Shown: positions 5,324-39,979 of the stretch, piece after piece
How positions within the stretch are numbered: the stretch's first letter is position 1
Layout: the number at the start of each line of letters is the position of its first letter
The notes under the pieces: model-generated
What the model saw: the letters and a program-made list of their open reading frames with translations, nothing else
The model's database searches: none
What the model was told of the DNA's origin: nothing
Made by a program: the position numbers and the translations under genes
Source of the DNA: a virus
Virus record (IMG/VR): IMGVR_UViG_3300005289_000602
Location: 1-40,102 of that record
Length of the DNA stretch: 40,102 bases
Direction: 5' to 3' (one strand)

Positions 5324-5863
5324 TTAAGCTGCAACAGCCATCCACTTGGAAACCATGCTGTCAGTAACACCAATATAGTGCATCGTGCTGCTGAGGTTCT
5401 TATGTCCCAAGATACGTTGCACGACAGGCAACGGCGCGCCTTGATCCACCAAGCGAGTAGCAAGCCCACGACGCCCGCTATATGTGCTGCCCTTAATCCC
5501 AACGCTGCCATAGAGTTTCTTAAATCGCTCGCTCAAGCTATGGGCTGAATATGGCTTGTCCTGCCTTCCCAAGATGAGGAAGCCAGATGCGCGATTACCA
5601 GTCAAAATCCTAACAGCCTCTAAAGCCGTGGAAGTAAGCGGAATCTCACGCGCCTCACCAGTCTTTGAAATCTCAGCCCTCACAACCAGCTTGGGATTAT
5701 CTGTGTAGATAACGTCCGCAACGAGCAGCCCAGCCAATTCCGCACAACGCAGGCCAGTAGCCCAAGATAGCTGTAGGAGTGCCTTGGCTTTCTCTGGATT
5801 GTGCCCACGGACATTATCAAGAATGTGCGCCCGTTCCGCATCGCTATGTATGACAGCTTTCAT
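5324..5863 (-). CDS. Tyrosine recombinase, catalytic domain only
   Basis: This 179-residue protein consists almost only of the tyrosine-recombinase catalytic domain. Expected landmarks appear in order: Arg39 in ATGLRCAEL, Lys67 in SKTGEAREIPL, Arg131 in YSGRRGLATRL, His154 in LGHK and the likely nucleophile Tyr163 in MHYIGVT. The first histidine of the usual H-x-x-R box is replaced by Tyr128. There is no N-terminal core-binding domain, and the protein is far shorter than typical phage integrases (300-400 residues). It may be a minimal invertase or dimer resolvase, a partner for another protein, or a relic of an older integrase. The phage already has a serine integrase at its left end, so integration is probably not its job. 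The promoter region at 5864-5998 is shared with the rightward gene at 5999. Confidence 0.85.
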   Translation of the reverse strand: MKAVIHSDAERAHILDNVRGHNPEKAKALLQLSWATGLRCAELAGLLVADVIYTDNPKLVVRAEISKTGEAREIPLTSTALEAVRILTGNRASGFLILGRQDKPYSAHSLSERFKKLYGSVGIKGSTYSGRRGLATRLVDQGAPLPVVQRILGHKNLSSTMHYIGVTDSMVSKWMAVAA

Positions 5864-5998: not shown

Positions 5999-6202
5999 AT
6001 GGAAAACAACAGAATTGATAGCGCGATAGATCGTTTAGGGGCAGCAATCGACAACTTAGACAACAGGGTAACATGCCTCGCCGTCACCTTGGAAATCCTC
6101 CTCGCTGAGCAGCAGGCAACACAAGCGCATGAAAACCCAAGCGATAGCAACCAGCAGATTTGGAACGGCCCTGACCTTAATCATAAGGAGGTCAGCGAAT
6201 GA
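5999..6202 (+). CDS. Small helical protein, 67 aa
   Basis: This short soluble protein has a heptad-like N-terminal half (IDSAIDRLGAAIDNLDNRV), suggesting a short coiled coil and self-association. The family is unknown. GGGG lies at moderate distance before the ATG. Its last four bases overlap the start of the next gene (ATGA-type overlap), so the two are translationally coupled. It is the first gene of a three-gene operon. Confidence 0.65.
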   Translation: MENNRIDSAIDRLGAAIDNLDNRVTCLAVTLEILLAEQQATQAHENPSDSNQQIWNGPDLNHKEVSE

Positions 6203-6621
6203 GCGATGCTCCACAATACCGCAAAGCGACACCAGAAGAGAAAGCCCGCATTGAACAGCTTGCCGCAGAAGGAAAGCCCCTAACTGCCATCGCCAAGGAG
6301 GTGGGCTTCTCACAGACCTACGTCGGCAAGATTGTTCGTCAGAGCAAGCAGCGTCTTTGGATCGAACATCGACGTGCAATCGACAGCCACGAACGATCCC
6401 TTGCGAACCTCGCGGAAAAGATCGAGCGCAACACCAGGGCGATTGAGCGCCAAACGAATTATCTCAAACTGGTCATGGGCCGCGTTTCTATGGCTATCAA
6501 CGGCGTCAGCAAAACCCGCGGGGTCCTAAAAAACATACAGGGCCGCATCACCAAGCTAATCCAGAATGAGGAAAAACAGCAGTCCCTCAGACCAAGCGTG
6601 TGGGGGAAGAGGCAACGATGA
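6199..6621 (+). CDS. Helix-turn-helix protein, 140 aa
   Basis: Residues about 8-50 look like a resolvase- or sigma-type helix-turn-helix (EEKARIEQLAAEGKPLTAIA, then VGFSQTYVGKIVRQ). The rest is a basic coiled-coil-like segment (about 60-135). It is probably a DNA-binding regulator, or a small adaptor of the kind seen in phages. AAGGAGG lies just before the start and the gene overlaps its neighbours on both sides by 3-4 bases. It is the clearest candidate DNA-binding regulator in the window. Whether it recognises any of the repeats described here is unknown. Confidence 0.7.
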   Translation: MSDAPQYRKATPEEKARIEQLAAEGKPLTAIAKEVGFSQTYVGKIVRQSKQRLWIEHRRAIDSHERSLANLAEKIERNTRAIERQTNYLKLVMGRVSMAINGVSKTRGVLKNIQGRITKLIQNEEKQQSLRPSVWGKRQR

Positions 6622-8148: not shown

Positions 8149-9024
8149 TTAACCAGCGAGTTGGCTCAGTGTAGGAAAGAACGGCCCCAGCACGGTGGCA
8201 TACTCAGCCAAGTAGCCGACCCATTTCTGGAAGAGGGGTTTATAATCCTCCGTGCCTTGAGACGCCTGCATCGCCTTAACAAGATCGAGGATCGCTTCAC
8301 GATCATTCTCGTTGCCAATGCTGCTATCGACAGCCTGGATTAGCTGGTCAAAGACATTCTCTGTCGTGATCGTATTGACGGAATTATCAGTTGAAGCAAT
8401 GACTGTCTTATTCTGATTACCATGGGTGTCACCATTATGGATATGCCCATAGTTGATGGTGATACTCTGTGCCGCTTGCTCAGCCTTCTGTTTCTCTTCC
8501 ATAGAGAAGCTAATCCCTTCGCCTAAGATGCCCTGCCGTTCCAACGCGCAAGCCCAATCCAGAACCATATCTCGAACATGAGACATGATCGCTATAGGAA
8601 CGCTCTTATCGAACTCGACATGATACGAGCGGTTATATCCGCCGCCGACTTTCAAGATGGTGGCCTGAATGTCAGCATCCACGATCATCGCCAATTTGCC
8701 ATCTGCCTTAGATAGCTCGTTAAGGCTGCTGATGGATTCCTTCAAAACAATGAAGGACAGAAAAGCGATTGTTTTTGGATCACCCAGAGCGGGCTTAGTC
8801 CCCCAATGCTGACTCACTTCCATCAATCTGCCGTGAACGTAACGGTATGGAGGAACGTCCTTGTCCTCAACGCCACCATATCCTTTCAGTTCGAGATCAA
8901 CCCATTCGACGGCATCCTGCAAATTCAGTTTAACGGCGGCCAGTTTCACGCGGCGCAACAGGTCAGCAATGCCTACTGTCGGATCAAGAGATAGTGCTTG
9001 GATTTCCTCAATCAGACCAGACAT
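8149..9024 (-). CDS. AbiTii-domain protein (abortive-infection family)
   Basis: The first roughly 190 of 291 residues match my memory of the AbiTii domain: an opening like LIEEIQALSLDPTVGIADLL, then VKLNLQDAVEWVDLELKGY, then an RYVHGRL block. Proteins with this domain have been linked to abortive infection of phages. A linker (about 190-215) contains ITINYGHIHNGDTHG, of a type often found between sensor and effector parts. The C-terminal domain (about 220-290) is helical and ends in a hydrophobic stretch (about 275-289), perhaps membrane-active. It is encoded with a small membrane protein and without head or tail genes nearby, so it is likely prophage cargo that protects the lysogen. Activity cannot be read from sequence. 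Confidence 0.68.
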   Translation of the reverse strand: MSGLIEEIQALSLDPTVGIADLLRRVKLAAVKLNLQDAVEWVDLELKGYGGVEDKDVPPYRYVHGRLMEVSQHWGTKPALGDPKTIAFLSFIVLKESISSLNELSKADGKLAMIVDADIQATILKVGGGYNRSYHVEFDKSVPIAIMSHVRDMVLDWACALERQGILGEGISFSMEEKQKAEQAAQSITINYGHIHNGDTHGNQNKTVIASTDNSVNTITTENVFDQLIQAVDSSIGNENDREAILDLVKAMQASQGTEDYKPLFQKWVGYLAEYATVLGPFFPTLSQLAG

Positions 9025-35650: not shown

Positions 35651-36046
35651 ATGACCACAGAACTAACGACAACGACAGGAACGCACGTTCCGCCTACTGT
35701 GGTTATGCCCACCCCTTACGATACCGCCCTCAGCTTCATGCCCGTTCTCCTGCTCATTGGCGCAGTCCTTGCCATCATCAAAGGCTGGGGATGGATCACA
35801 GACAGGCGCGACAAGGACGTTCAAAACAGCACTGTCATTGAAACTCGATTGGATGATTTAGAAAAGTCATCCAAAGCCATTAAAGAACACACTGAAAGGC
35901 TGAACCATCATGAAAACCGTATAACGGTCATTGAGACAAACAATGCCCATATCTACACCACGCTTGGCGAGGTGAAAGAAGGCATCAAGCAGCTAAATGA
36001 CAATGTGTTGGTTTTGGCGCGGCAATCGCTGCGCAAAGAAGACTAA
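35651..36046 (+). CDS. Membrane protein with coiled coil (possible lysis accessory)
   Basis: The 131-residue protein has a short polar N-terminus, one membrane helix (about 28-48, ALSFMPVLLLIGAVLAIIKG), and a long coiled coil (about 55-125, with ETRLDDLEKSSKAIKEHTER). This resembles holin-associated or XhlA-like membrane proteins, but family assignment is uncertain. GGAGGA lies before the ATG. Its stop overlaps that of the minus-strand gene, with no terminator in between. Confidence 0.65.
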   Translation: MTTELTTTTGTHVPPTVVMPTPYDTALSFMPVLLLIGAVLAIIKGWGWITDRRDKDVQNSTVIETRLDDLEKSSKAIKEHTERLNHHENRITVIETNNAHIYTTLGEVKEGIKQLNDNVLVLARQSLRKED

Positions 36047-36465
36047 ACTTCCCTGATCTGATAGCGAACGCGGCCTAAGAATGTCTGTTTGGGGTAGCCC
36101 TCCAAATCTGGATTTATGGCTGCTTCGCTCTCCCCTATCCCATCCAGATCGAGGAAACCCATCTTACACAGCCAGCATAATTCCTGCCCAATCTGCCTCC
36201 ATTCTGGACGCTCAACCAGCTCGTCTAGGTTCACGTCTTGGACAACAAAGCGGCGGTAGATCGCCCGCAGACGGCGCAAACCCATTCCATTGAGGAACCC
36301 GCTGCCGTCCAGGTCCAATATGGCCTGTTCCACTATGTCAGGCGTGGATTTGAGTTGGCGGGCGAAATAGGCAAGCTGGCGATCGTTCTTGATGCCTTGG
36401 TTGAAACCTGAGCGCAGATACAAGTCTATCAGGTTATGAGGGGGGAATGAGGGGACCGTTTTCAT
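36043..36465 (-). CDS. Hypothetical protein, 140 aa
   Basis: This soluble, mostly helical protein is unrecognised. It has a middle segment (LKSTPDIVEQAILDLDGSGF) compatible with a small winged-helix or primase-accessory-like domain. The ATG at 36465 is preferred because a hairpin and TAAATA box lie exactly in front of it, as before the 11428 gene. The longer reading adds 13 residues through the hairpin. It follows the 36473 gene on the same strand with a few bases between. Confidence 0.65.
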   Translation of the reverse strand: MKTVPSFPPHNLIDLYLRSGFNQGIKNDRQLAYFARQLKSTPDIVEQAILDLDGSGFLNGMGLRRLRAIYRRFVVQDVNLDELVERPEWRQIGQELCWLCKMGFLDLDGIGESEAAINPDLEGYPKQTFLGRVRYQIREV

Positions 36466-36483
36466 CCCGTATTTATTGGGATG
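36463..36483 (-). promoter_or_regulatory. TAAATA box in start-codon hairpin (minus strand)
   Basis: Read on the minus strand, CATCCC and GGGATG form a 6-bp stem around a loop with AATAAATAC. The box occupies 36470-36475, and the ATG at 36465-36463 is in the right arm. The element closely matches that at 11409-11431: both read TAAATACGGGATGA. TAAATA here begins with the TAA stop of the upstream gene. Confidence 0.58.
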
Positions 36484-37351
36484 CGCGCTCTGACAGCCCC
36501 TCAATGAAGCCCTTGATGTCTGGATGGCTGCTTTTCCTCTTTGTCCAGTTATCCGTGCCAGCCAGTGCGGTTATTGGATATGCGGACTGGACGAACACCA
36601 CGGACTTTTTTGCTGGGTTTGCGTGTGGGGTGGCCTTGATGACGATACAGTCATTGTTGCTGGGCGCTTTCTTGCCCTTTGGGTCGTTCTCGCCGTGGAC
36701 GATGCCAAGCTGAATGTCGCATTCGTCCATACCATCCAGCGCAATCTCAAGGGAGCGCCATAGGCTGTCTGGGGCGCCAGCCTTTTCCAGCTTCCTCTTT
36801 GCCTCAGCAGGGGCATAGAAAACGACATGCTCCTTACCGCCGTCCTTGTAATCAAGATTGCCAGAGCCAAAGCCAGAGCCTTCCCAAATGCTGACAGTCA
36901 CTTGCTGATTGCGGTCTAAGGGCTTCGCAGCCACGGCCTGCTGCTCTGAGGCTGTTGGAGTGCTGTCTGGCTGAACAACGCCCTGAAAGCGATCTACGGC
37001 GGCATGTGCAACAGCTTCCAAGCTGCCATAGTGCGCCAACAGCGCCTGCCAGTGATCCTCAACAGTGAGCGATTGGACAGTCTTAGGGGCAGCGGAAACG
37101 CCTTGCTTCTTCCATTTCCAAGCAGTCGTGCGGCCGATTTTGACAATCTGGCTGGGGATGGTGATGCCAAGGTGAATGTCTATGTTGCGGATCAGGCCAG
37201 CAGATTGCTTCTCTGTAAGGCTGCCTTTGTCCAGCAATGTATCTATGTATGATTGGATATAACGGATAGTCTTAGCATCGCTGCTCAGCTTTGGATTTTG
37301 TTTGTCTATAATTTTACGGGCAAGACTCACCCAATTGATTTGCTTTGTCAC
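36473..37351 (-). CDS. Possible DNA-binding protein, 292 aa
   Basis: The protein is of unknown family. Residues about 45-85 contain IRNIDIHLGITIPSQIVKIG and GRTTAWKWKKQGV, which look like a helix-turn-helix. A linker (about 120-145) is followed by a C-terminal beta-rich domain (about 145-290, SIWEGSGFGSGNLDYKDGG, DSLWRSLEIALDGMDECDIQ). GTG at 37351 is preceded by AAAGGGA. It is the gene nearest to the repeat array at 37846-37930 and reads away from it, so it could be the protein that binds these sites, as a regulator or origin-binding protein. That is inference. Confidence 0.65.
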   Translation of the reverse strand: MTKQINWVSLARKIIDKQNPKLSSDAKTIRYIQSYIDTLLDKGSLTEKQSAGLIRNIDIHLGITIPSQIVKIGRTTAWKWKKQGVSAAPKTVQSLTVEDHWQALLAHYGSLEAVAHAAVDRFQGVVQPDSTPTASEQQAVAAKPLDRNQQVTVSIWEGSGFGSGNLDYKDGGKEHVVFYAPAEAKRKLEKAGAPDSLWRSLEIALDGMDECDIQLGIVHGENDPKGKKAPSNNDCIVIKATPHANPAKKSVVFVQSAYPITALAGTDNWTKRKSSHPDIKGFIEGLSERASQ

Positions 37352-37427
37352 TTATATGTTATCCCTTTCGTTGATAATAATGAGATACGTTTCCAGTCGT
37401 ATCTTTGCCCGTCTCCATCCTTTCCTG

Positions 37428-37484
37428 CTGTGGGCAGCAACATCAACGAAAGGAATCTGGAAATCGGGACAATTGCTGCCCACA
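37428..37484. repeat. Perfect 12-bp inverted repeat
   Basis: TGTGGGCAGCAA (37428-37439) and TTGCTGCCCACA (37473-37484) are exact inverted copies, 33 bases apart, upstream of the leftward gene at 37351. On the minus strand a TAAATA box lies just before it (37488-37493), so this is again a box followed by a stem. Confidence 0.7.
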
Positions 37485-37487
37485 TTT

Positions 37488-37493
37488 TATTTA
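37488..37493 (-). promoter_or_regulatory. TAAATA box on the minus strand
   Basis: GCAATAAATAAAATG on the minus strand, ahead of the 12-bp inverted repeat and of the gene starting at 37351. CAGCTA (37501-37506) and TAGCTG (37512-37517) form another small palindrome just upstream. Confidence 0.45.
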
Positions 37494-37845
37494 TTGCCTA
37501 CAGCTAAAATATAGCTGAAATGACCCCGTAAAGTCGATATTTCCGCGCCGCCATTCTTTAAGATACTCGTTGGGCGACAGCCTCATGGCTTAATGTGCTT
37601 CCAGACTGCGAAGCTGAGAATGGAGCGAGTTTTAAGCGAGCGTAATGAAAGCGAGTTTTCAACGAGCATGATAATGTTCATTTGACTCCCATGATTTTCT
37701 CGACTTATTTTATGAGCGCCGCTGGCGCTTGAATGTAGAGCGAAGCGACGAAGTAATAATGCGCTTCATGATATTTTATTTTATATTATTCTACATTATA
37801 GAGGCTCGAAAACCGCTGATTTACGGGGGTTTCAAGGGCATTTTT

Positions 37846-37930
37846 GTTTAACTGGTGTTTGACCGATGTTTGACTTATGTTTAACTGACGTTTGACTCGC
37901 GTTTAACTATAGTCAAACATATGTTTGACC
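37846..37930. repeat. Array of eight GTTTRACY sites, 11-bp pitch
   Basis: Six direct copies of GTTTRACY begin at 37846, 37857, 37868, 37879, 37890 and 37901, exactly 11 bases apart. An inverted copy (AGTCAAAC, 37911-37918) fills the seventh slot and a direct copy follows at 37923-37930. Copies vary only as GTTTAACT, GTTTGACC and GTTTGACT. A spacing of about one helical turn puts the sites on one face of the DNA, as in iterons or cooperative operators. Confidence 0.88.
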
Positions 37931-37995
37931 CAGGAAAATTCCTGTTTTCCGCAAGAATGTGGAAAAATCGTAAAATCGCTGAAACTGCCCGCGAA

Positions 37996-38018
37996 AAACC
38001 CCCGTTTCCTGGGGGTTT
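37996..38018. terminator. GC-rich hairpin after the repeat array
   Basis: AAACCCCC (37996-38003) and GGGGGTTT (38011-38018) form a perfect 8-bp stem with a 7-base loop. T- and A-runs beside the stem are short, so it may be a terminator on either strand or a structural part of an origin. Confidence 0.45.
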
Positions 38019-38050
38019 CAGAGGGATGGAAATCGCAGATTTCAGCAGTC

Positions 38051-38066
38051 AGCTATAGGTATAGCT
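38051..38066. promoter_or_regulatory. 16-base palindrome AGCTATA-GG-TATAGCT
   Basis: Near-perfect dyad with a two-base centre, similar to the palindrome at 37501-37517 (CAGCTA...TAGCTG). Two related palindromes on either side of the repeat array could be binding sites for one dimeric regulator. Confidence 0.5.
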
Positions 38067-38111
38067 GAACGGTCGCCTATTGCAGAAACCACGGATTTTT
38101 CAGCAGAATAC

Positions 38112-38117
38112 TAAATA
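38112..38117 (+). promoter_or_regulatory. TAAATA box before terminator
   Basis: ATACTAAATAGTAATG: the box is part of the short dyad ACTAAATAGT. It lies 60 bases before the terminator at 38177 and has no gene directly behind it, so it may mark a short non-coding transcript. Confidence 0.35.
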
Positions 38118-38176
38118 GTAATGAAGACTGTAACCATAGTTTTCAAAGAGTAGATATTTGTAAAGTCATATTGGAG

Positions 38177-38209
38177 AACCCCTTTAGCGAAAGCTGGAGG
38201 GGTTTCTTC
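38177..38209 (+). terminator. Rho-independent terminator
   Basis: AACCCC (38177-38182) pairs with GGGGTT (38199-38204). An inner AGC-GAAA-GCT hairpin with a stable tetraloop completes the stem, and TTTCTTCTT follows. It isolates the holin-like gene from the region to its left. Confidence 0.8.
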
Positions 38210-38217
38210 TTGCTCAA

Positions 38218-38223
38218 TAAATA
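38218..38223 (+). promoter_or_regulatory. TAAATA box immediately before holin-like gene
   Basis: CAATAAATATCAGTATG: only five bases separate the box from the ATG at 38229. If it acts as a -10 element the transcript would be nearly leaderless. No ribosome site fits in the gap. Confidence 0.5.
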
Positions 38224-38228
38224 TCAGT

Positions 38229-38516
38229 ATGTTCCAGGCAATCAAAGATAGGATCAAGAAGGTTATCAGCGCATTGAAGCCGCTGACTGACAATGACGGC
38301 ATGGCTACGGGTATCATGCGCTGGCCAAGGCCCACGGCGTTCTTCCTGTTGGTGATCCTCTTTATCGTGGGCTGGTTCAACCCCACCACACTGCTGGCCT
38401 ACGCGAGTGCGCTCGCCGCGTTCCCACAGGATTTTTGGAACGTAGTTTTTATCATTTTGGGCAGCATCGCAGGCAGCAAGGGGCTGGCTGATATAGGGAA
38501 GCTAATCAAGCGATGA
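38229..38516 (+). CDS. Holin-like membrane protein, 95 aa
   Basis: The 95-residue protein has a charged amphipathic N-terminus and then two or three membrane helices (about 33-50, 52-66 and 70-86). The pattern RPTAFFLLVILFIVGW, then FWNVVFIILGSIAGSKGLAD, and a short basic tail resembles three-helix holins of phages and gene transfer agents. Holins make the inner-membrane lesion at lysis. The gene overlaps the next one by 4 bases. No endolysin is adjacent, which is unusual. Confidence 0.68.
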   Translation: MFQAIKDRIKKVISALKPLTDNDGMATGIMRWPRPTAFFLLVILFIVGWFNPTTLLAYASALAAFPQDFWNVVFIILGSIAGSKGLADIGKLIKR

Positions 38517-38739: not shown

Positions 38740-39435
38740 ATGACAATTCACCTGACAGGCTTCAAAGCCTCAACTGTAATAAAGCCATCAAGAGATACAC
38801 AGATCGAGATAGGCGACCTTAAAGACACCTTTCAGGCCATTTGCGACATTATCCCCCACGACAAGGATGTTCCGACATATTGGTGCATGAACAGCTACGA
38901 TCCAGCGGGGAAGCATAATAAGCAAAGCGTCAGGCAACTCACTGGCATCATATTGGAATATGAGTTGCGCTATGCCAAAGACCTCATAGCAGCACTCAAG
39001 GACATACCTTGGCATTATCTGCTTGTGGAAACGGAACGCAAAAGCGGGCCAGGCATCAGCCTATTTTTCCCGCTCGCGTTTGAGCCAGATATAGGCCGCT
39101 ACATGCGTATTGCGGGCGTCCTGGCCTATCAGCTTGGCGTCTATGGGTTGAGCCACGGCAGCGGCACACCAACATTCCTCGTCAAACTGGCTGGTGGACA
39201 GCAGATAGCAGAGAGTGCAGGCCCAGCCATAAGCATGAGTTTCATCAAAGAGACGTGGGACATTGGGGAAGCGTCAAAGACGGCGCTGGACGACTTTCAG
39301 GGGCCAAAGCCTGTCAAACAAGGAGCGAGCGAATTCGTCGTTCACGCTGACAAGTTCATCATCAAGGCAAATGGCAAGGAGCAGCAGATTGCATCCCATT
39401 TCAGAATGCTCGCCGATCTTTTTGACCCTGAGTAA
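38740..39435 (+). CDS. Possible primase-related (AEP-like) protein, 231 aa
   Basis: Family not certain. The segment SVRQLTGIILEYELRYAKDL and then a LLVETERKSGPGISLFFPL block recall the N-terminal part of archaeo-eukaryotic primase-type proteins (an acidic pair after a hydrophobic strand, then a strand ending in a basic patch). Here the first acidic site reads E-Y-E instead of D-x-D. Later PTFLVKLAGG would correspond to a following strand. The last third is polar. If correct, it would be a minimal primase in a phage with few replication genes; otherwise an unknown soluble protein. It ends in a strong terminator. Confidence 0.55.
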   Translation: MTIHLTGFKASTVIKPSRDTQIEIGDLKDTFQAICDIIPHDKDVPTYWCMNSYDPAGKHNKQSVRQLTGIILEYELRYAKDLIAALKDIPWHYLLVETERKSGPGISLFFPLAFEPDIGRYMRIAGVLAYQLGVYGLSHGSGTPTFLVKLAGGQQIAESAGPAISMSFIKETWDIGEASKTALDDFQGPKPVKQGASEFVVHADKFIIKANGKEQQIASHFRMLADLFDPE

Positions 39436-39490: not shown

Positions 39491-39844
39491 TTAGGCTTTG
39501 AGCGTTCCAGCAGCCCTTGCTTCCGCCGCATAGGCTGACAGCGTTTTATCAGGCTGGAAATACAAGTCCTGTTCCAGACGGAAAACTCCACCAATGCGGG
39601 CGGCGGCTAACTCGTCCATCGAGACATATCCCATCTCAGGGCATCCAAACCCCAAATCAGTGATGCCAAAGGCTAAGCCGTCCTCGTCGCATTCAGTTAG
39701 CAGGATCGTGATAGCCCCGCCAAACAGCTTCACGACAGGCTCAAAATCTCGCTCTCCTGCCGTTCCTTTCAACGGCTGCTGCTCTTTCCAGTTATCATGC
39801 AGCTTGAGAACATCAGCAGCGCGTATCATATTTTTCCATTCCAT
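39491..39844 (-). CDS. DUF2958 family protein, 117 aa
   Basis: The pattern PVVKLFGGAITILLTECDED, then GLAFGITDLGFGCPEMGYVS, a DELAAARI helix and a late LYFQPDKTLSAYAAEARAAG, is that of DUF2958, a family common on mobile elements and of unknown function. ATG 39844 is preceded by AGGAG; the longer reading from 39889 adds 15 residues without a ribosome site. It is the only gene here with a typical plasmid or conjugative-element family assignment. Confidence 0.82.
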   Translation of the reverse strand: MEWKNMIRAADVLKLHDNWKEQQPLKGTAGERDFEPVVKLFGGAITILLTECDEDGLAFGITDLGFGCPEMGYVSMDELAAARIGGVFRLEQDLYFQPDKTLSAYAAEARAAGTLKA

Positions 39845-39979
39845 CTGTTGGCTCCTTTTGTTTGTGCCAACAGACTCACCTAAATCCATCTTCCTTGATT
39901 GCGATAGAAAAAGGCATCGAAGGTATCGACTTCAAGACTCGTTAGTTCAGACTGACATTCTAACTTAAAGGAGAATGTT

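Follow-up and report, generated by a model that had tools for sequence, protein, structure and literature searches.

Eight GTTTRACY units spaced at 11 bp, together with their flanks, are probably the replication origin of the phage represented by an IMG/VR virus record, which we analysed over its whole length of 40,102 bp (hereafter, the window). The best reading, by analogy, is an intergenic origin of the iteron type that would work like the origins presumed to lie inside the DnaD-like helicase loader genes of other phages. The phage itself is temperate, uncharacterised and without a recognised replication gene.

Geometry of the array

The array consists of the following elements:

37846, 37857, 37868, 37879, 37890 and 37901 (span 37846..37911), plus strand: six direct GTTTRACY units
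37912..37918, minus strand: inverted seventh unit, GTCAAAC on the plus strand (an inverted GTTTGAC)
37923..37930, plus strand: eighth unit, direct, GTTTGACC
37912-37929: perfect 18-bp palindrome GTCAAACATATGTTTGAC, made by the inverted seventh unit

The pitch is exactly 11 bp across all eight slots. Both the positions and the spacing given in a preliminary description of this DNA were confirmed, with a small correction of register: the octamer of the inverted unit lies at 37911-37918, one base off register, whereas its heptamer is in register. The palindrome GTCAAAC-ATAT-GTTTGAC, which had been attributed to the inverted unit, is perfect over 18 bp, and GTCAAACATATGTTTGAC exceeds all other perfect inverted repeats of the 40 kb in length. 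Stop codons are present in all six frames across the array, which is therefore inside no ORF. Read on the minus strand, the order is GTCAAAC, inverted GTTTGAC, GTTAAAC, GTCAAAC, GTTAAAC, GTCAAAC, GTCAAAC and GTTAAAC, followed after 43 bp by TATAATGTAGAATAATATAAAATAAAATATC.

Six consecutive units at 11-bp pitch have a chance expectation of about 1e-21. No other 7-base word in the window occurs in at least five copies on a fixed pitch of 8-40 bp, and none of 40 Markov resamples contained a 7-base word in that number of copies and range of pitch. When scored as self-identity at lag 11 on the minus strand, the array reached 26/33, the next best value in the 40 kb being 19.

Since the linkers that follow the Y of the six direct units are all distinct (GGT, GAT, TAT, GAC, CGC and ATA), a recent tandem duplication can be ruled out. 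They also bear on the possibility that the array is a minisatellite or a decaying tandem repeat without function, which we consider highly improbable. In favour of a minisatellite, a scan for four direct GTTTRAC units at 11-bp pitch detected such arrays in unrelated viral contigs and genomes (8 viral contigs and 21 genome stretches), and their frequency in viral contigs was close to that of a reversed-word control (CARTTTG, 6 viral contigs). However, nearly all arrays at these 29 other loci have identical or near-identical linkers, mostly 1-3 distinct ones over 4-13 units, whereas the window array has all-different linkers, with the 8-bp core kept, and an inverted unit, a combination that replication slippage does not produce. 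Given their minisatellite-like linkers and the similar frequency of the reversed word, the 29 loci were rejected as relatives, and direct GTTTRAC tandem arrays elsewhere are minisatellite-like and uninformative on function. Three contigs of Clostridia MAGs (L022, L023 and L024) carry as many as 19 GTTYAACYATY units in tandem between genes. A second scan, for direct-inverted-direct GTTTRAC at 11-bp pitch, retrieved five viral contigs compared to one for the reversed-word control; L048/L049 and L052, among these five, led to the loader genes described below. In a literature search of incomplete coverage, no paper naming the GTTTRAC 11-bp unit was found.

The gene-free gap around the array

The array lies in the longest stretch of the record without genes (37352-38228, 877 bp), which also contains the following features:

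37751..37802, minus strand: putative DNA-unwinding element (DUE), with the most AT-rich 50-mers of the record (up to 82% AT)
37809..37841 (left) and 37995..38027 (right), plus strand: 33-nt repeat pair bracketing the array, 73% identical
37931..38070: run of consecutive hairpins, including AAACCCCC/GGGGGTTT and TCAGCTATA/TATAGCTGA
37958..37966, minus strand: weak DnaA-box-like sequence TTTTCCACA, with one mismatch to TTATCCACA

Gene-free surroundings with an AT-rich tract and hairpins had been described before, and all three were found again here. The 50-mers highest in AT over the whole window begin at 37748-37765, 45-100 bp from the array, and the hairpin run occupies the opposite side of the array, with a single-strand DNA fold z of -5.4. 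On the minus strand, the AT tract displays a weak periodicity at lag 5 and lag 10 (0.61 and 0.65, with scores of 19 of 33 at lag 5 and 20 at lag 10). After shuffling of the tract, the lag-5 value was reached in 15 of 5000 cases, while 175 of 5000 shuffles equalled it at one or another lag between 2 and 12; a 5-bp pitch feature in this tract is only suggestive. No clear switch of GC skew was observed at the array.

The main rival to an origin is an operator array, which we regard as possible but unlikely. A phage regulator of the ribbon-helix-helix or HTH type would bind the heptamers cooperatively, and silence or activate a promoter in the 877-bp region, serving for example the genes 36043-37351 on the left or the lysis genes on the right. 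The units are indeed flanked by divergently oriented genes, and a pitch of nearly one helical turn with both direct and inverted sites would suit the stacking of dimers. Moreover, there are cases of similar units next to a promoter-like sequence: two related marine viral contigs, L050 (1650-1726) and L051 (205-330), carry GTTWAAC units of mixed orientation at 11-bp pitch upstream of a MazG-like gene, and in L051 two clusters of them (4 + 4) are located just downstream of a consensus-looking TTGACA-N17-TATAAT. In the window, by contrast, no convincing promoter overlapping the array was found, the nearest gene (36473-37351) starts 495 bp from it, and an operator function would leave the adjacent AT-rich maximum unexplained. 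The gap also contains CAGCTA-N5/6-TAGCTG palindromes at 37501-37517 and 38050-38067, which occur nowhere else in the 40 kb (0.02 expected). These rarer palindromes are candidate repressor operators and make a better operator candidate than the array.

Towards the right end of the gap, the stretch 38100-38215 is strongly structured on the plus strand (RNA fold z = -5.2) and has a good plus-strand terminator at 38176-38205, despite the fact that no plus-strand gene is present between 37352 and 38228. This stretch could possibly encode a small RNA; a search of Rfam gave no match.

Gene content of the record

The 40,102-bp record starts with an ATG and ends with a stop codon, as would be expected if a provirus had been cut back to whole genes at both ends. 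Genes for terminase, portal, capsid and tail extend up to 35593, and the following genes were also recognised:

1-1590: large serine recombinase
5324-5863, minus strand: tyrosine recombinase of 179 aa, with little beyond the catalytic domain
8149-9024, minus strand: AbiTii (Pfam E = 2e-31)
35651-36046 and 38229-38516: holin-like proteins
39491-39889, minus strand: DUF2958 protein

The two recombinases are typical of an integrating phage and suggest integration; a search for an att site by exact repeats gave nothing convincing. This single phage thus carries both a 179-aa tyrosine recombinase and a large serine recombinase, and its AbiTii-family protein is a candidate anti-phage defence gene located on a phage. 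Given that the best plasmid matches of the DUF2958 protein are mostly alphaproteobacterial, the host is probably an alphaproteobacterium.

None of the proteins tested could be assigned as a replication initiator, helicase, primase or partition protein. The DnaD-like, O-like, RepA and Rep_3 families had no match among the window proteins tested, and no Rep family matched the products of 36473-37351, 36043-36504 or 38740-39435 in Pfam, NCBIfam and PHROGs. By eye, 38740-39435 had given the impression of a degenerate AEP-type primase, which no search supports; its single-sequence AlphaFold model (mean pLDDT of 33) was unusable. DNA similarity searches with the region returned no match or chance pieces only, and searches for relatives by protein (36473, 38740 and terminase) in viral contigs, phages, plasmids and genomes returned none or remote terminase/portal matches.

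A further reading, which we judge improbable, is that the prophage is extrachromosomal and the array its parC/parS-like partition centromere, recognised by a protein resembling ParR or a small ParB. Eight units at 11-bp pitch fit the 10-11-bp repeats bound by ParR proteins: R1 ParR requires a minimum of two 11-bp repeats, and the repeats bound by the pB171 ParR are 10 bp long (PMC9426499). Both R1 parC and the window contain 11-bp direct repeats, but no ParM/ParR genes were recognised in the window: parM and parR had no match among the neighbouring genes in Pfam, PHROGs and NCBIfam, and ParA, ParM, TubZ, ParR and ParB had none in any protein tested. Besides, the large serine and tyrosine recombinases suggest integration.

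The array was also compared with iteron plasmid origins (RK2, P1, F, R6K and pPS10), whose iterons are 17-22 bp long (PMC4980987). Direct repeats and an AT-rich DUE adjoining the iterons are common to these origins and the window, and the weak DnaA-box-like sequence, with its one mismatch, may be a further resemblance. However, the 11-bp pitch of the window is about half of theirs, and no Rep winged-helix protein was found. The preliminary description had offered an operator array or an iteron-type origin, the latter implying a plasmid-like replicon. Of these, an origin is favoured by the anatomy of the region and by the comparison with loader genes described below. A plasmid-like replicon is not supported, given that no Rep or Par family protein was found, that the pitch is halved and that the two recombinases are of the integrating-phage type.

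Arrays in DnaD-like helicase loader genes

Iteron arrays at 11-bp pitch were found within DnaD-like helicase loader (replisome organiser) genes of Firmicutes phages:

L048, 7295-8035, minus strand: loader gene with array
L052, 9198-9914: loader gene with array
L063-L072: ten further annotated loader genes with arrays

In L048/L049 and L052, the array is located mid-gene in loaders assigned to phrog_5708/8489 (E of about 1e-44 to 1e-47) and is directly followed by AT-rich pentamer repeats; the array stretch is where the L048/L049 and L052 loader proteins align poorly. The ten further loader genes, from phages of Brochothrix, Streptococcus, Lactococcus, Ruminococcus, Enterococcus and Lactobacillus, contain 3-5 iterons at 11-bp pitch in nearly the same place of the gene. 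Their iteron words differ (TGACAACCANN, TGTCAACCANN and GTATMCANNNN), and the iterons are followed on the 3' side by A/G-rich AGGATAG/AGGTTAG repeats with a pitch of 5/15 bp. In several loader arrays, the last slot is occupied by an inverted unit (GTATCC...GGATAC), so that the inverted unit of the window, suggested earlier as a possible nucleation site, has counterparts there. As 11 bp do not make a whole number of codons, the 11-bp pitch is a feature of the DNA and not the result of peptide repeats.

Scoring was based on self-identity at lag 11 plus a lag-5 tract 3' of the iterons. Both features were present in 12/12 loaders and in 0/124 control ORFs, the 12 loaders being related genes with at least four iteron words among them and not 12 independent events. 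Lag-11 scores ranged from 21 to 29 in the loaders and did not exceed 20 in 123 of the 124 control ORFs, while lag-5 scores of the loaders were 20-27.

When the window is read on the minus strand, the order and polarity of iterons and tract match those of the 12 loader genes. Other shared traits are the exact 11-bp iteron pitch, a core of 7-9 bp, variable linkers, one inverted unit (in some loaders) and an AT- or A/G-rich tract on the same side. The window differs in that its array is intergenic, has eight units and is separated from the tract by a 43-bp gap, and in that no DnaD-like gene was recognised among the proteins tested. Its 5-bp periodicity is weak, with a lag-5 score of 19 compared to 20-27 in the loaders. 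Its palindromic pair of units occupies the end far from the AT tract, whereas in some loader arrays the inverted unit is found at the AT-proximal end.

Judging from their anatomy and from the precedent of SPP1 and lambda, the loader-gene arrays are presumably replication origins. Both SPP1 origins, oriR and oriL, combine direct repeats with an AT-rich DUE; the initiator gene contains oriL, whereas oriR is located at another site (PMC6316719). Hence, oriR, apart from the initiator gene, provides a precedent for an intergenic origin in the window. Direct repeats next to an AT-rich DUE are common to SPP1, which uses the gp38 replisome organiser, and the window, where no gp38-like protein was found. 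The lambda origin likewise has iterons followed by an AT-rich region, but its iterons are of 18 bp, with a pitch of 20, 24 and 23 bp, and lie inside gene O. We found no paper on the 11-bp/5-bp layout of loader genes in literature of incomplete coverage. An 11-bp iteron pitch and a 5-bp tract, shared despite differing words, would offer a simple signature for phage origins in raw sequence.

Candidate initiator and proposed mode of action

The genes closest to the array on its left side are:

36473..37351, minus strand: nearest gene, 292 aa, reading away from the array
36043..36504, minus strand: second gene of the leftward unit, 139-153 aa, overlapping the end of 36473-37351; no family

By its position, 36473-37351 is plausible as the best-placed candidate binder or initiator. 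Its product contains the segment RTTAWKWKKQGVS, which by eye resembles an HTH recognition segment with no database match behind it, and has no detectable homologue in viral contigs, phages, plasmids or sampled genomes, absence from the latter being weak evidence. The single-sequence AlphaFold model of this protein was unusable (mean pLDDT of 39). The product of 6199-6621, proposed earlier as another binder, gave weak HTH matches only, and its gene has no positional link to the array.

The minus-strand leader of 36473-37351 (37352-37500) can form two mutually exclusive long stems. The first pairs 37473-37484 with 37429-37440 (12 bp, perfect), and the second 37442-37456 with 37361-37375 (15 bp, one mismatch in the DNA), which would leave the AAAGGGA ribosome-binding site almost fully paired (unpaired probability 0-0.09). 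From these predicted folds, the leader looks like a translational RNA switch.

Counted in favour of an origin were the geometry and non-randomness of the array, the longest gene-free gap, the nearby AT-rich maximum and the weak DnaA-box-like site, together with the loader-gene comparison (12/12 vs. 0/124), the lag-11 score and the position of the AT tract 3' of the array on the minus strand. Counted against it were that no initiator was found, that the array is outside an initiator gene, the weak pitch-5 signal, the AT-distal palindromic pair, the lack of a clear GC skew switch, the late/lysis gene setting and that no relative of the region was found.

We infer that, at such an origin, an initiator would be a phage protein, with the product of 36473-37351 as the best-placed candidate, which would bind each GTTTRAC heptamer, successive sites being one turn apart and thus facing almost the same side of the helix. 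Stacking of its protomers could then form a nucleoprotein array whose strain would open the AT-rich tract (37751-37802). To this opened tract, the initiator, together with a loader or that of the host, would bring the host DnaB helicase. The 18-bp palindrome could take a symmetric initiator dimer, which might set polarity or directionality, or else serve autoregulation.

A more specific version, which we put forward only tentatively and consider doubtful, is that the intergenic origin depends on initiators of a family not yet described, to which 36473-37351 and perhaps 36043-36504 would belong; an RNA switch at 37361-37484 that sequesters the ribosome-binding site would control their translation. 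If this reading were true, 11-bp iterons plus a short-pitch tract would be an origin design common to unrelated initiators. If the region is an origin, there is now a defined site, with a few candidate initiators, for a phage in which no replication gene was recognised, and a new initiator family could thereby be found by pull-down or by cloning of a minimal replicon.
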